The notes under the pieces were generated by a model, which did no database searches, was not told where the DNA came from, and saw nothing but the letters and a program-made list of their open reading frames with translations. A DNA stretch of 64,000 nucleotides, taken from assembly GCA_024635495.1 (NCBI GenBank), contig JAGXIT010000005.1, positions 1 through 64,000 of the forward strand, written 5' to 3'. The DNA is from Candidatus Saccharimonadota bacterium (lineage in GTDB: Bacteria; Patescibacteriota; Saccharimonadia; Saccharimonadales; UBA4665). Positions 13,607-55,228 of this stretch are shown here, one piece after another. The position numbers and the translations under genes were made by a program. Position 1 is the first letter of the stretch. Each line of letters opens with the position of its first letter.

Positions 13607-13923
13607 CTGTACTATTGTACCTCAGTTGCGCTATGTTTTTGCGTCAAAAGCGGAAATTTAGTTGAGGAAGGTGGGACTTGCCTTGTGCCGCATGAGCGAA
13701 AATGCGCCGCAAGCACAACCGGTCTCCCATTGGTCGACCGGTTTCGGGTCCGGGTGAGAACTGTCTGTGACAGTTTGCAAGGTCGGAAACTCGGCGCAGC
13801 AAAAGCATGCCCGAGATGAGGCGGGCTCGCGAGAAATCGTGAGTTGCCACTGGCAAACCCGTTCAAATCCCGGTAGCTCAGCCAAGCATAAGCACTTTGC
13901 GAAAGCAGAGCGTTTTTGTTTGC

Positions 13924-13929
13924 TATACT
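13924..13929 (+). promoter_or_regulatory. -10 box, leaderless start
   Basis: TATACT followed by GAGAAT and then ATG at 13936, so transcription should start at or next to the initiation codon. Confidence 0.45.
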
Positions 13930-13935
13930 GAGAAT

Positions 13936-14148
13936 ATGCAGAAAATTGCAACGAGAGTTTTTATCTATGCGTCTATACTATTTGGGATTATAGGTATTCT
14001 AGTAGTATTGACGGCGTCAGGTGGTCCAAACAAAGAGGACTCGGATATTTTCGAAATTTTAATAAAGCTTCTATTCATAACTGTTTTTATCATACTGCCC
14101 TCATTCGCACTAAGTCTTGCTAGTAAGTACCTCAAAGATAGATCTTAG
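13936..14148 (+). CDS. Small membrane protein in tRNA-Leu cassette
   Basis: A 70-residue protein with two membrane helices (about 5-27 and 40-62) joined by a short acidic loop (GGPNKEDSD), ending in a basic tail (KYLKDRS). The start at 13936 is chosen because a TATACT -10 box lies 6 nt upstream; the longer frame from 13897 would run through the promoter. The gene is AT-rich compared with the surrounding chromosome and lies between copies of the tRNA-Leu 3' end, both signs of transfer. No family recognised. Confidence 0.55.
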   Translation: MQKIATRVFIYASILFGIIGILVVLTASGGPNKEDSDIFEILIKLLFITVFIILPSFALSLASKYLKDRS

Positions 14149-14192
14149 TTCAAGGCTATAACATTCAGATAATTTTTGCATTTACAGGACTA

Positions 14193-14693
14193 GTGGGTAC
14201 TATTGGTGGTGTTTTGATATCGTATTTGACACTAAGGCATAATTTTAATAAAGATAGGCATCGCGTTATGGTTGGCCTAAGTAACAATATCTTGATGAAT
14301 GTTCCAGGTGTTGATTCGAAAAAAGAACAGTTCACGATAATGGCAGCGAATCTTGAACAAGTTCCGTTTATTGTCGCCAATATCAGGATTAGCGTTGGTC
14401 GTAGGTCAGGTGCGTTGTTTATACCTATTCCGACGGGTACACACCAAATACCAGCAACACTAAATAGAGATCAAACATGTAACTTCTGGACTGACTATAA
14501 GGATGCTCTGAAGGCTATAAAAAAACTGGCGAGGCGTAATAAAATTAAAGTCCGCGCTCAAATATCGGATTATGCCTGTAATAAGTTTTATTCGCAATGG
14601 AAATCAATAAGATTCGATGAGACATTTTGGTCAAAAGTAATCACGAAATTTAAGATGTTTGGCAGTCACATACTCAGACTGGTGTCCCCGTAG
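14193..14693 (+). CDS. Membrane-anchored unknown protein in tRNA-Leu cassette
   Basis: A 166-residue protein from a GTG at 14193. The frame is open back to 14142 and encodes IIFAFTGL just before the GTG, so the N-terminal membrane helix probably begins further upstream; no ATG, GTG or TTG is available there, leaving an unusual start (ATT at 14163 preceded by AAGG) or a frameshift from the preceding gene as possibilities. After the helix the protein is basic and soluble (KDALKAIKKLARRNKIKVRAQI). AT-rich; no family recognised. It ends 25 nt before a strong terminator. Confidence 0.55.
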   Translation: MGTIGGVLISYLTLRHNFNKDRHRVMVGLSNNILMNVPGVDSKKEQFTIMAANLEQVPFIVANIRISVGRRSGALFIPIPTGTHQIPATLNRDQTCNFWTDYKDALKAIKKLARRNKIKVRAQISDYACNKFYSQWKSIRFDETFWSKVITKFKMFGSHILRLVSP

Positions 14694-14717
14694 AAGTCTA
14701 GACCTTAACGCTCATGT

Positions 14718-14755
14718 ATAGAAAAACACCGTCACAAAAGACGGTGTTTTTCTAT
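14718..14755. terminator. Bidirectional terminator in tRNA-Leu cassette array
   Basis: A 16-bp perfect stem (ATAGAAAAACACCGTC with its complement) and a 6-nt loop. Leftward it directly follows a displaced tRNA-Leu 3' end with CCA; rightward it ends the gene at 14193-14693. Both arms are flanked by A or T runs. Confidence 0.8.
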
Positions 14756-14925
14756 GGTGGGCGAGGTGGGACTTGCCTCATCGGCCATATGCAAAATGCA
14801 TTGGCACGATGACCCTGCTTCCATTGGTCGCAGTGCAAGGGTCCGGCCAGTGCCACTGGCACTGGCGTTCAAGTCCCGAGCATGGCGACCAACTAAAAAG
14901 ACTACTTTTCAGTAGTCTTTTTAGT
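14755..14925 (-). mobile_element. Mini-cassette without gene downstream of tRNA-Leu
   Basis: Its left end, 14755-14775, is a perfect 21-bp direct repeat of the tRNA-Leu 3' end at 14926-14946 (T-loop position 56 through CCA). Inside are an inverted T-arm copy (CAAGTCCC, 14870-14877), GC-rich palindromes, and an 18-bp-stem terminator that begins at the tRNA CCA. The period is 171 bp. The direct repeat is seen; origin by integration is inference. Confidence 0.6.
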
Positions 14926-14928
14926 TGG
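14889..14928 (-). terminator. Terminator of tRNA-Cys/tRNA-Leu
   Basis: An 18-bp perfect stem around a 4-nt loop. The stem includes the encoded CCA of tRNA-Leu and ends in T5 on the minus strand. Confidence 0.85.
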
Positions 14929-15013
14929 TGGGCGAGGTGGGACTTGAACCCACAAGGCTTATTCAGCCAGCGGATTTTAAGTCCGCCGCGTATACCAATT
15001 CCGCCACTCGCCC
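14926..15013 (-). tRNA. tRNA-Leu(UAA)
   Basis: An 88-nt class II tRNA with acceptor GGGCGAG/CTCGCCC, anticodon loop CTTAAAA (anticodon TAA), a long variable arm, T-loop TTCAAGT and an encoded CCA. It lies 13 bp downstream of tRNA-Cys on the same strand. Confidence 0.95.
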
Positions 15014-29895: not shown

Positions 29896-30009
29896 TCTTC
29901 TCGGAATGGATTAGAACATGTATCACCATACGATTATGGAGGAATGTAATTTGACGCTTATGCTTATATGTGACTTTACAAGTTTGGTCAGAATTGGTTA
30001 ACTTACGTG

Positions 30010-30507
30010 ATGAGCGAGCAAATGCCCGAATCAGCCCTATTCGCCGAGCTTGAGCAAGGTACAAGCCCGGTTGACGTAGCCACAGCCGTTTTCTTTGAAA
30101 GCACCGAGGATTTCCTGAGGGCTATAAGTTACGGTCTGGAAGCGCGCGATTCTAAACATACCCATGCGGTTGAGACAATACGTGAACGTGCCGATTCTAT
30201 GGGCACGGCGGCACAATCACTTGCGACGGAATTATACGATGAAGACTCAGAGCAAGCCCGACAAAAGCTTGCAGGATCTATCAGCGCTCAAGATCGTATG
30301 TTCGATGGTCTATTGAGGCCATACCTACCTGGAGTACCTGCTAGAGCAATAGGGTACGAGAGTGAGGAAGCATTTTATAAAAAACTCAGCGAAGGCATGA
30401 TGATATACAGATTCCGCCAGTTCGATACGCCTACTGCCCTGCGATCAGCCGCAAAAGATGTCGTACTGATGAATGCCAGGGAGTGGGTAGGTACTTTAGC
30501 CCGTTAA
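30010..30507 (+). CDS. Unknown helical protein
   Basis: A 165-residue acidic protein, all-helical by composition, from the ATG at 30010 (a GTG sits one codon upstream). It has no membrane segment or Cys. Segments such as PVDVATAVFFESTEDFLRAISYGLEARDS and YESEEAFYKKLSEGMMIYRFRQF show no family match. The 29896-30006 gap has a TTGACG box but no clear -10. Confidence 0.6.
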   Translation: MSEQMPESALFAELEQGTSPVDVATAVFFESTEDFLRAISYGLEARDSKHTHAVETIRERADSMGTAAQSLATELYDEDSEQARQKLAGSISAQDRMFDGLLRPYLPGVPARAIGYESEEAFYKKLSEGMMIYRFRQFDTPTALRSAAKDVVLMNAREWVGTLAR

Positions 30508-30773: not shown

Positions 30774-30850
30774 GCGGGTGTAGCTCAGTTGTTTAGAGCG
30801 CGTCCTTGCCAAGGACGAGGCCAGGGGTTAGAGTCCCCTCACCCGCACCA
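30774..30850 (+). tRNA. tRNA-Gly(GCC)
   Basis: Acceptor GCGGGTG/CACCCGC, anticodon loop TTGCCAA (GCC), T-loop TTAGAGT (an unusual A at position 56), encoded CCA. Its 3' end is duplicated at 31921-31940. Confidence 0.95.
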
Positions 30851-30890
30851 ATGAAAGGACCCAGATGAAAGTCTGGGTTTTTTCATTGGT
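30848..30890 (+). terminator. tRNA-Gly terminator built on the CCA end
   Basis: CCAATGAAA ... CCCAG/CTGGG ... TTTCATTGG: nested stems with a T6 run at 30879-30883 region. The outer stem uses the encoded CCA of the tRNA. Confidence 0.75.
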
Positions 30891-30955
30891 CTGAGGCGGG
30901 CTCTAACTATCAGATTGTATGAAAATATAGGTTAGCTCTAAATATATATTTGTTG

Positions 30956-30961
30956 TATAGT
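30956..30961 (+). promoter_or_regulatory. -10 box of cassette gene, leaderless start
   Basis: TATAGT, 7 nt before the ATG at 30969, with TTAGCT 18 bp upstream. No Shine-Dalgarno sequence. The promoter lies inside the cassette, so the cargo brings its own. Confidence 0.55.
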
Positions 30962-30968
30962 ATTGCTT

Positions 30969-31808
30969 ATGAGTACAGGTGAAAGCGTAAGGTCGCAATT
31001 TGGGCTAGTAGAAACTCGTAATCTTATCGTGAAAGCGGTTGGTAATGGCGACCATGCTAGAGCGGTGTTCCATCAAGTTTTTTTCCCTAAAGAATATGAA
31101 CACATACAAACAGAGTTTGCTACACCAGCTTTTTGGAGTAGTCTCAGCGAAATAACACCTAAGAGACGAAACGATGGTTATATAAATTTTTTACAGGGTA
31201 TTAGCGACTACAACGGAGTTGATATGGCCGGTGTCGCTGTGCGCAGCAAAAGAGAGGGTCGTCGGGCTCAAAAGGCTATGCAAGAGACCCTTGGTAATTT
31301 TTTCAGCTCTGAAAATGTTGAAATTTTAGGTGACGGCTCGGGTACAGCAGAAAGGCTGACAGACCTTAGTGGTGAACGGGCGGTTGGCATGCTGAGTTCT
31401 GAGCCTGCGAATATCGCGCTTTATGCTCTACTTAAGGCCAGCCGAAAAAGAGTAGTCAAAGAAGGTAATCCGTATCCGATTGTCATAGCTGGACTGGCTC
31501 GTAATAAATCAACCGATCCTATTGAAGATTTTCTTACAAAAGCTCCTCATCTAATTGATAGTCATCTTAGGGGTGGAAGTTACGTTAACTATAGTCAGTC
31601 AGAATTACCTATTGGCACATCGCAAACAGATGCAAGAGTAGCTAGTGCTGCACGCTCTGGCACTTCTGATATTCCTTTCAACATTCAAGTAGTTGAACTA
31701 CCTGAATACTCAGAACAGGCTGGTGCTGCCTTAGCTGATTACCTCAGCAAGATTGCATTTCAGCACTATGAGGCTCCCGAGAATCAGATAATTAGACATG
31801 TTGGCTAA
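30969..31808 (+). CDS. Cargo gene of tRNA-Gly cassette, unknown function
   Basis: A 279-residue soluble protein from the ATG at 30969 (a TTG two codons upstream is possible). It is mixed alpha/beta with no membrane segment; segments such as YPIVIAGLARNKSTDPIEDF and GVDMAGVAVRSKREGRRAQKAM suggest a nucleotide- or nucleic-acid-related fold, but no motif is decisive. It is more AT-rich than flanking genes and is enclosed by the tRNA-Gly direct repeats, so it is probably recently acquired. Function not recognised. Confidence 0.6.
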   Translation: MSTGESVRSQFGLVETRNLIVKAVGNGDHARAVFHQVFFPKEYEHIQTEFATPAFWSSLSEITPKRRNDGYINFLQGISDYNGVDMAGVAVRSKREGRRAQKAMQETLGNFFSSENVEILGDGSGTAERLTDLSGERAVGMLSSEPANIALYALLKASRKRVVKEGNPYPIVIAGLARNKSTDPIEDFLTKAPHLIDSHLRGGSYVNYSQSELPIGTSQTDARVASAARSGTSDIPFNIQVVELPEYSEQAGAALADYLSKIAFQHYEAPENQIIRHVG

Positions 31809-31993
31809 AATTTAGTCTATGTATAAAATCGATCACAAGAGAGCACTGGACTGGACTCTGCACCTACAGAAGTAGATACTTCGGAATCCTACTCTATCAC
31901 CGGATAATTGATTCAGGAATAGTCCCCTCACCCGCACCAAAGCTTTCTGATGATACGTTTACTTATGTACGCTTACTCAGGTAGTATTGGTCT

Positions 31994-36258: not shown

Positions 36259-36413
36259 TGGCTCCTCCTAGACAGCGGGCATCGCCCTTCTCCGCTGTGG
36301 CATGCTCGGAGTAAACTCCCGTGCGTGTCATCGCTCCGCCGAACTTCCAGTTCGAGCCCCGGACAACGTCCGGCCAAAGAAAATACCCCAGCTTGCGCTT
36401 GGGGTATTTTCTT
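36259..36413 (-). mobile_element. Mini-cassette downstream of tRNA-Phe
   Basis: The left end (TGGCTCCTCCTAGAC, 36259-36273) matches 14 of 15 bp of the tRNA-Phe 3' end at 36417-36431. Inside is a 77-bp palindrome-rich core (36271-36347) that is 67/77 identical to one at tRNA-Pro, then an inverted T-arm relic and the tRNA terminator. Confidence 0.6.
36271..36347. repeat. 77-bp core repeat, copy 1
   Basis: It matches 54839-54915 with 10 substitutions and no gap. It can fold into AGCGG/CCGCT with an inner GGC/GCC, and CATGC/GCGTG around GGAG/CTCC hairpins. Confidence 0.8.
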
Positions 36414-36416
36414 TGG
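36374..36416 (-). terminator. tRNA-Phe terminator
   Basis: A 17-bp perfect stem (CCAAAGAAAATACCCCA and its complement) with a 9-nt loop. It includes the encoded CCA of tRNA-Phe. Confidence 0.85.
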
Positions 36417-36489
36417 TGGCTCCTCCCAGACTCGAACTGGGGACACAAGGCTCTTCAAGCCTCTGCTCTACCAACTGAGCTAAAGAGCC
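36414..36489 (-). tRNA. tRNA-Phe(GAA)
   Basis: Acceptor GGCTCTT/AGGAGCC, anticodon loop TTGAAGA (GAA), T-loop TTCGAGT, encoded CCA. Confidence 0.95.
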
Positions 36490-48504: not shown

Positions 48505-48581
48505 TGGTGCCCCGGGCAGGATTCGAACCTGCGACCTTAGGCTTAGAAGTCCTCTGCTCTATCCAGCTGAGCTACCAGGGC
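48505..48581 (-). tRNA. tRNA-Arg(UCU)
   Basis: Acceptor GCCCTGG/CCGGGGC, anticodon loop CTTCTAA (TCT), T-loop TTCGAAT, encoded CCA. Its 5' half is duplicated upstream. Confidence 0.95.
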
Positions 48582-48589
48582 AGACACCA

Positions 48590-48704
48590 TGTGTTATCTA
48601 CAGTGTACATCTGATTTGTAAAAGTTCTGTTTCGGCTGGCTAGAGCAGAGCTGCGATTGATTTCAGCTCACGGCTGTCCAGCTGAGCTACCAGGGCAGAC
48701 ACCA
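48590..48704 (-). mobile_element. Mini-unit with duplicated 5' half of tRNA-Arg
   Basis: A 28-bp perfect direct repeat (48562-48589 and 48677-48704) covers the tRNA-Arg 5' end to the D-loop plus its upstream flank. Between the copies is an inverted D-arm relic (GGCTGGCTAGAGCAGAG, 48634-48650). The period is 115 bp. The upper copy is a tRNA fragment, not a gene. Confidence 0.55.
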
Positions 48705-54226: not shown

Positions 54227-54775
54227 TTAAAATATCGGCTCAGCATTTTTTATCAATGACAATACACCTCGGACTTCATGTTCTGATACAAAGTTTAATC
54301 CAAGCATAGCCTCTTCGGAGCGTGCTTTTTGTACTTCGGCAATAGCCGCAAGGTCAGCCATGGCGGACGAGTTTGGGCTAGCGTCGATAGAATGTGAAGG
54401 GATAGTTCTGGCGCCTATATCCATTCTTTCGTGTTTATGTATATGCAAGTCACCTGAGTTATGAGTAATGAAATAATTTGTCACAATCCTACCAGCCTCT
54501 CCGCCTAAGCGCCTACCGAAACAGAGTCTTCCGACTCGTATTGGATCATCTAGGCTTGCGCCCTTCCGTATACGATATGCGGCCAGTTCCTGAGAATGAT
54601 GTCGTAGCTCTGTACCAACACTGCCGTCACCATACTCTCGGCCAAATCTTACTTTTTCATTGATCGCATGTATAAGTGCGCCAAGCGTAAATTGGCCTGG
54701 TGTTTGAGCCCCTAGGCCGGCCTCAAAAAATTCTGGATGAGGGCGGTTTTGATGGTTTTGATTTTCAAAAGTCAT
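54227..54775 (-). CDS. Unknown soluble protein
   Basis: A 182-residue protein, His- and Asn-rich at the N-terminus (MTFENQNHQNRPHPEFFEAG), with HNSGDLHIHKHERMD in the middle and no membrane segment. No family recognised. It starts 51 bp left of the leftmost displaced tRNA-Pro end, so it might be outside the cassette array. CTATAT lies a few bases before the ATG. Confidence 0.5.
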   Translation of the reverse strand: MTFENQNHQNRPHPEFFEAGLGAQTPGQFTLGALIHAINEKVRFGREYGDGSVGTELRHHSQELAAYRIRKGASLDDPIRVGRLCFGRRLGGEAGRIVTNYFITHNSGDLHIHKHERMDIGARTIPSHSIDASPNSSAMADLAAIAEVQKARSEEAMLGLNFVSEHEVRGVLSLIKNAEPIF

Positions 54776-54825: not shown

Positions 54826-54966
54826 GGTCGGGGTGAAAGACAGCGGGCTTCGCCCTTCTCCACTCAGCCATGCTCGGAGCAAGCTCCTGTGCGTGGCATC
54901 GCTCCGCCGAACCTCTGCTACGCTAGTACGGTTCTTCGTCCTTACCATATAAAAAACCCATCTTTT
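54826..54966 (-). mobile_element. Mini-cassette 2 downstream of tRNA-Pro
   Basis: Its left end GGTCGGGGTGAAAG (54826-54839) is identical to the tRNA-Pro 3' end at 55153-55166. It holds the second 77-bp core (54839-54915), then a T-arm-like relic (CGGTTCTTCGTCCTTACC, near 54929-54946) and a weak terminator. No gene. Confidence 0.55.
54839..54915. repeat. 77-bp core repeat, copy 2
   Basis: 67 of 77 bp identical to 36271-36347 at the tRNA-Phe locus, without gaps. Confidence 0.8.
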
Positions 54967-55151
54967 CGGGTGAAAGGACTCGGTCACGTTCCGCGACCCC
55001 GAAATTTCTCGATTGAAAGCATAGCTTTCATCCGAAAGTTTCCTTGCGAATTGCCACCGGCAATTCTCACCTTCGACCTCATGAGGTCGTAACTTCGATT
55101 CCCTCAGCCAAGACCAATGAAAAAGCCGTCCTATTCGGACGGCACTTTCAT
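54967..55151 (-). mobile_element. Mini-cassette 1 downstream of tRNA-Pro
   Basis: The left end GGGTGAAAGGACTCG (54968-54982) repeats the tRNA-Pro T-arm and acceptor end (55158-55172). Inside are palindromes, an inverted T-arm relic (CGACCTCATGAGGTCG region to 55111), and the tRNA terminator at 55112-55156. Confidence 0.55.
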
Positions 55152-55156
55152 TGGTC
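55112..55156 (-). terminator. tRNA-Pro terminator
   Basis: GACCAATGAAA and GCCGTCC stems around a 4-nt loop with a T5 run on the minus strand. The outer stem contains the tRNA CCA. Confidence 0.85.
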
Positions 55157-55228
55157 GGGGTGAAAGGACTCGAACCTTCGACCTCACGGTCCCAAACCGC
55201 GCGCGCTAGCCAACTGCGCCACACCCCG
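55152..55228 (-). tRNA. tRNA-Pro(UGG)
   Basis: Acceptor CGGGGTG/CACCCCG, anticodon loop TTTGGGA (TGG), T-loop TTCGAGT, encoded CCA. Confidence 0.95.

Follow-up and report, generated by a model that had tools for sequence, protein, structure and literature searches.

Introduction

Integron integrases are thought to have originated from housekeeping Xer recombinases working on folded DNA, and the core of the attC site is defined by two boxes, R'' (RYYYAAC) and R' (GTTRRRY). Overall, attC sites are built from outer complementary boxes, an unmatched spacer (the acceptor region), and a variable terminal structure (PMC2727003). CTXphi uses a related arrangement—a forked hairpin of about 150 nt formed from two inverted sites, with a host recombinase acting in trans (PMC3089051). 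Genomic islands in tRNA genes are a third point of reference; programs that find islands require an integrase gene, and according to Islander no serine integrase is known that acts at tRNA genes (PMC4383910).

Here we describe a single-gene cassette behind tRNA-Gly(GCC) in a 64-kb stretch of DNA (the window) from a Ca. Saccharibacteria genome, together with similar units behind other tRNA genes of this genome and six congeners. Saccharibacteria are tiny epibionts for which few gene-capture routes are known. Our preferred reading, held tentatively at a probability of roughly 0.45, counts the Gly cassette among a family of Saccharibacteria cassettes that have no integrase, are anchored at tRNA 3' ends, and are mobilised in trans. 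No prior description of such units was found in a literature search whose coverage left out subscription papers and preprints, and the wider system appears to be undescribed within the libraries searched.

The Cassette at tRNA-Gly

The features of the Gly cassette are as follows.

30774-30850, + strand: tRNA-Gly(GCC), intact anchor and target (ARAGORN; Rfam RF00005, 70.8 bits)
30832-30851, + strand: direct repeat copy 1, spanning the 3' strands of the T-stem and acceptor of tRNA-Gly, its CCA, and the base that follows (exact match)
30847-30890, + strand: terminator hairpin, read from the sequence, with its stem beginning within the CCA end (ACCAATGAAA...TTTCATTGGT)
30886-30907, + strand: degenerate copy of the 3' end of tRNA-Gly in inverted orientation (TTGGT..GGGCTCTAAC; shuffle test and tRNA comparison)
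30969-31808, + strand: cargo gene P0001, an AT-rich orphan protein (279 aa if counted from ATG 30969, 281 aa if counted from TTG 30963)
31921-31940, + strand: direct repeat copy 2, the displaced tRNA-Gly 3' end and right cassette boundary (exact match)

The first-pass annotation had reported that the last 20 bp of the tRNA recur unchanged 1,089 bp downstream, and this is exactly what we find; the repeat, AGTCCCCTCACCCGCACCAA, has two exact plus-strand copies at that spacing, no third copy within 2 mismatches, and no match in 100 dinucleotide shuffles. The terminator, inverted T-arm relic, and single AT-rich gene that it had placed between the repeats are likewise all there. Out of 5,000 shuffles, one equals the local score of the relic, TTGGTCTGAGGCGGGCTCTAAC, whose top match among the genome's 42 tRNAs is tRNA-Gly(GCC); folded together, terminator and relic reach -25.3 kcal/mol. 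The cassette has a GC content of 42% (48.5% for the whole window), P0001 is its sole ORF, and it carries no integrase. We keep the earlier description of a discrete cassette that carries one gene, is inserted at tRNA-Gly, and is smaller than any normal integrative element would be.

P0001 has a stop-free stretch of 288 codons, compared with a maximum of 183 in shuffles, and a third-position GC of 0.32, compared with 0.45-0.66 in its neighbours. As to the leaderless promoter proposed earlier, a TATAGT box 7 bp 5' of the ATG suits a leaderless start by eye, but it is absent from the promoter scan list. No family match worth naming was obtained in Pfam, NCBIfam, or PHROG, and a structure predicted from the single sequence was unusable (pLDDT 33). 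No relative of P0001 turned up in 98 related genomes, in 393 genomes of the class, or among plasmids, phages, and viral contigs, and on the latter four absences we reject it as a vertically shared gene. The gene upstream of the tRNA (30007-30507, 166 aa) is also an orphan, with no Pfam or PHROG family.

The first-pass annotation had raised two ways in which the cassette might dissolve. The gene could have sat at the same place in all relatives, with diverged repeats; it is in none of them, and congeners carry different DNA behind tRNA-Gly(GCC), in three cases with a large serine recombinase gene (loci L007, L009, and L010 of genomes G001, G002, and G004). The second repeat could have belonged to an ancient tRNA duplication; it consists of the 3' 20 nt alone. 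A lactate-permease-like gene upstream of the tRNA is common to the window genome and G001.

Units Behind Other tRNA Genes

The survey covered stretches around the tRNAs of the window genome (G000) and a tRNA sample from the six congeners (G001-G006); with tRNAs masked, we searched within 10 kb for exact matches, 12 bp or longer, to the final 23 bases of each tRNA. Over the seven genomes, a tRNA's own displaced 3' end lies downstream at 39 of 230 tRNAs and upstream at 4. From G000 to G006 the downstream counts are 8/42, 7/28, 0/28, 6/27, 4/33, 13/36, and 1/36; among the shortest matches, a few (Ala-CGC and Gln-CTG in G005, for example) probably arose by chance. Displaced copies mostly lie 85-185 bp behind the tRNA and end a unit without an ORF, and most units are ORF-less and about 120-190 bp long. 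Besides the Gly cassette, the window has displaced ends at tRNA-Leu(UAA) and tRNA-Pro(UGG) and a degenerate one at tRNA-Phe, with typical ORF-less units of about 150 bp at all three.

14926-15013, - strand: tRNA-Leu(UAA), anchor of a two-unit array
14755-14775, - strand: 21-bp displaced 3' end of tRNA-Leu, the far end of unit 1 (14755-14925), which has no ORF
13669-14754, - strand: second Leu unit, which has hairpins, two ORFs on the opposite strand (14193-14693 and 13897-14148), and a displaced copy of 12 bp (13669-13680)
55152-55228, - strand: tRNA-Pro(UGG), anchor of a two-unit array
54968-54982, - strand: displaced copy ending Pro unit 1
54864-54899, - strand: conserved hairpin module of Pro unit 2 (46.5 bits, E 6.5e-13)
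54826-54839, - strand: displaced copy ending Pro unit 2
54227-54775, - strand: orphan gene, AT-rich, separating Pro unit 2 from the conserved next gene (the spacer is just 216 bp in G002)
36296-36331, - strand: conserved hairpin module behind tRNA-Phe(GAA) (36414-36489)
36259-36273, - strand: degenerate displaced tRNA-Phe 3' end

The first 20 nt of tRNA-Arg(TCT) (48505-48581) are also duplicated, 115 bp upstream (48676-48695, - strand)—the sole 5'-end tRNA duplication seen in the window.

In the ORF-less units the tRNA is followed by a terminator, an inverted cognate T-arm, hairpins, and the displaced T-stem/acceptor end. Where X denotes the tRNA part from variable loop to CCA, the full order begins with X as part of the tRNA and continues with terminator, inverted X, loop, X5', hairpins, and X3'; here X5' comprises the variable loop and T-stem 5' strand, and X3' the T-loop edge, T-stem 3' strand, acceptor, and CCA. 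The hairpins thus occupy the T-loop position of the displaced copy. Repeats always begin at the T-loop edge or T-stem and extend to the CCA or near it. The inverted arm is specific for its tRNA: the mean local score is 27.8 against the unit's own tRNA, 20.6 against other tRNAs, and 18.1 against shuffles, and the cognate tRNA ranks within the top 10% in 37 of 57 units. Among the paired blocks, the match is best in the T-stem and T-loop (0.69-0.78), 0.70 in the CCA, and worst in the acceptor (0.53). We rejected a reverse-transcriptase or tRNA-primed origin, as a reverse transcriptase is missing in 6 of 7 congeners and the acceptor matches poorly.

A second unit type (Leu, Val-UAC, Ile, Lys, Ala, and Pro unit 1) has different hairpins, missed by the covariance model discussed below. 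We also observed a third, shorter type with the displaced copy 86-91 bp downstream and a common CAGTCTTCGA junction.

L102, 4183-4268: third-type unit (Tyr)
L128, 11195-11271: third-type unit (Arg-CCG)
L148, 11000-11075: third-type unit (Trp)

Units are present or absent at syntenic tRNAs with conserved flanks, which identifies them as insertions. At tRNA-Val(UAC), with conserved neighbours, G005 and G006 have a unit and G000, G001, G002, and G003 have none; at tRNA-Val(GAC), G003, G004, and G005 carry one, G006 shows no displaced copy, and G000 has nothing beyond a module match. The distance from tRNA-Leu(UAA) to the next gene is 211 bp in G006, which has no unit, and 1.3 kb in the window; for tRNA-Pro(UGG) it is 216 bp in G002 and about 1 kb in the window, where two units and an orphan gene intervene.

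Arrays contain 2-3 units, and in six arrays distal repeats never exceed proximal repeats in length. At one contig start (L105, G003:C73, 34-324), ORF-less units stand in tandem, with three hairpin modules spaced at about 127 bp. Other intervals bear genes: the tRNA-Gln array has three small genes inside, one with DUF5679; the tRNA-Asp interval of G001 encodes a 257-aa protein with a weak transglutaminase-like match; and the tRNA-Asp interval of L164 is also gene-bearing. It counts against our preferred reading that the Gly gene lies between inverted arm and repeat, whereas the genes of the Leu array come before the hairpins.

The Conserved Hairpin Module

Type I units have a common hairpin, GC(A/G)CAG-stem-CTTG-stem-CGAGCA. 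A 27-nt pattern of this hairpin matches 44 stretches in 84,980 genomes, labelled nearly all as Saccharibacteria, Saccharimonadia, or unnamed CPR bins (two as Parcubacteria); among 2.9 million viral contigs it has no match. For 32 of the 44 there is a tRNA upstream in the locus, and 27 of these 32 hairpins lie 82-115 bp behind it, with many isoacceptors represented. The fold covaries—free stem positions are Watson-Crick in 130 of 132 cases, with one G-T pair—and the wobble count for a functional strand is one G-T against one A-C. A shorter pattern matches 32 of 295 order genomes, and its reversed control matches none of the 295. The pattern is nearly missing from f35, a large Saccharibacteria family (about 200 genomes), and common in other families, which makes for a patchy distribution of the system.

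Across the whole window genome, a covariance model of the hairpin has exactly 13 matches, all tied to a tRNA; 12 lie behind it, ten of them within 82-114 bp. The exception has tRNA-Asn-like arms and sits 16 kb from tRNA-Asn, behind an inserted large serine recombinase gene. Matches to the model occur in 17 of 117 class genomes. Against Rfam, gathering scores were reached by tRNAs alone, with nothing credible below.

The hairpins are 88-95% identical over about 65-75 nt behind different tRNAs and in different species, with arms that fit each host tRNA; in the window, a near-identical pair lies behind tRNA-Pro and tRNA-Phe. Such homology bears on local duplication, in which replication fold-back at the tRNA/terminator hairpin would give X, inverted X, and X, with no mobile element and the gene as a passenger. 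The order of tRNA end, terminator, inverted end, and direct end is what template switching would be expected to leave, and in some units (Asp in G003, Val-UAC in G004) the terminator is duplicated too; however, fold-back does not account for homologous hairpins behind different tRNAs and cannot make 1-kb single-gene inserts. The common hairpins disfavour it as the sole cause, and we regard it as highly unlikely. Fold-back terminators were also considered as a unit marker and rejected, being common at empty tRNAs too.

A second alternative is that the units are structured RNA genes, or antisense or decoy RNAs of the preceding tRNA, retained by selection—gene conversion or template switching would keep the 3' end identical, and the Gly gene would be an unrelated insertion. 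Strong base-pair covariation, class-wide conservation, complementarity to the cognate T-arm, common hairpins behind different tRNAs, and the terminator that often follows the displaced end are all consistent with RNA genes; in contrast, presence or absence at syntenic tRNAs, different units arrayed behind one tRNA, 19-23 bp repeats ending at the T-loop edge, and gene-bearing intervals whose cargo is unrelated argue against them. We consider this explanation unlikely, though it deserves more weight than fold-back.

The Gly cassette has no recognisable family hairpin; a right-end candidate seen by eye is not significant, and a second inverted arm at the same end is plausible by eye and also not significant. 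The first-pass annotation had held up Gly as the clearest case, and here we differ: it has the cleanest repeat pair, yet it is an atypical or eroded member of a family whose typical member is an ORF-less unit of about 150 bp. Its link to the family rests on repeat boundaries, position, and the inverted arm.

Candidate Recombinases

No integrase lies within the units. PF00589 finds one gene per genome, the chromosomal Xer near tRNA-Arg(CCU), and none in G002. The window genome's only PF00589 protein passes a single model, the XerA-type NF040815 (230.6, cut-off 220); it falls below the IntI cut-offs, with 131 bits for TIGR02249 (cut-off 265) and 75 for NF011946 (cut-off 435). G002 is 96% complete and has no PF00589 tyrosine recombinase, seven large serine recombinases, and no unit at the 28 tRNAs sampled. 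Because G002 lacks both Xer and units despite its seven serine recombinases, Xer is the best candidate enzyme. Co-occurrence over 295 order genomes is uninformative—Xer is in 281, and one of the 14 with no detectable Xer (G162) has a hairpin-pattern match.

Large serine recombinases bear on a further alternative, in which the units are miniature remnants or satellites of larger tRNA-targeted islands, moved by the islands' own serine recombinases or by a lost integrase. Genes of this kind lie directly behind tRNA 3' ends in the genus, including tRNA-Gly(GCC) in the three congeners above, and at four loci a large insert, three of them with such a gene, separates tRNA and unit. The window genome has one, adjoining tRNA-Asn (L052, G000:C5:168646), and another lies behind tRNA-Trp in G003 (L074). 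The Trp island sits between the tRNA and its units—beside them, not inside—and its repeat at the CCA end, CCCCTGCCA, is different and shorter; from this position and repeat we treat it as a separate system. The distribution also runs against remnants, in that G002 is richest in large serine recombinases and has no units, whereas G006 has none by PF07508 and yet has units. Random remnants would not be expected to share a conserved hairpin and cognate arms, and we judge this origin improbable, if somewhat less so than fold-back.

A Proposed Mechanism

In the mobile-cassette reading, each cassette would bring its own tRNA segment (T-loop edge to CCA) and terminator. Insertion would occur at the T-loop/T-stem-3' boundary, keeping the tRNA whole and moving the original 3' end downstream as a direct repeat; newcomers would enter adjacent to the tRNA, and arrays would accumulate. 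A typical cassette may be seen as a tRNA-tail palindrome (inverted T-arm, loop, direct T-arm) broken at the T-loop by conserved hairpins, and some carry one to three small genes, such as P0001. A trans-acting recombinase, most likely the chromosomal Xer, would work on the folded single-stranded cassette, possibly through a circular form, in the way that IntI uses attC or XerC the hairpin of CTXphi; no circular form or excision was seen. The insertions, their boundaries, the arrays, the covariation of the fold, and the specificity for the tRNA are observed; the enzyme, the folded intermediate, and the circle are inferred. What suggests a folded substrate is that the arms are palindromic and the hairpins covary, as a parallel to attC (PMC2727003) and the CTXphi hairpin (PMC3089051).

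A near-identical hairpin behind different tRNAs with cognate arms is unexplained by plain site-specific insertion; gene conversion of the module, strong sequence selection, or arm copying from the target could account for it. A bolder version, which we find doubtful but worth stating, is a retargetable system in which one folded module moves among tRNAs, with arms copied from each target and the recombinase in trans, making tRNA tails dozens of parallel integron-like sites. Should the units prove to be cassettes, as many as about 40% of the window genome's tRNA genes would be landing pads for orphan genes with no element-borne integrase. Standard tools would miss them: island finders need an integrase, integron finders need IntI or attC, and Rfam has no family. 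With such units, it could be tested cleanly whether folded DNA is a substrate for a housekeeping Xer.

Comparison with Known Systems

Like MITE and REP-like elements, the units are short, non-coding, palindromic, present in many copies per genome, and would be mobilised in trans; unlike them, they lie strictly at tRNA 3' ends with arms derived from the host tRNA, and no relation to a transposase was found.

Islands in tRNA genes (Islander type and tycheposons) insert in the 3' part, restore the tRNA, and have a displaced 3' fragment marking their end (PMC4383910). The units share the intact tRNA and direct displaced 3' fragment; however, they measure 0.12-1.4 kb instead of tens of kb, have no tyrosine integrase or any other integrase of their own, and add an inverted cognate T-arm, conserved hairpins, and arrays of bare units.

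The CTXphi type is similar in its hairpin of about 150 nt made of inverted sites and would also be so in a host recombinase supplied in trans, for which Xer is no more than a candidate here. The units differ in having no phage genes and in their target, which is the T-arm at tRNA 3' ends and not dif.

The first-pass annotation had likened the Gly cassette to an integron-type one. The units are not integron cassettes, with neither IntI nor an attC consensus: by eye there is no GTTRRRY at unit boundaries, where repeats begin [AG]TCC after CGCT/GATA. They are anchored at tRNAs instead of an attI beside intI, with many anchors per genome; their arms copy the anchor tRNA; and genes may sit inside the folded site. 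In logic, however, integrons are the closest analogy—their cassettes too are integrase-less, often hold one small orphan gene or no ORF, and form arrays with the newest insert closest to the anchor, an arrangement of anchor-end insertion that the units also display, and the putative folded sites of the units resemble attC in their order of outer box, mismatched spacer, and inner box.
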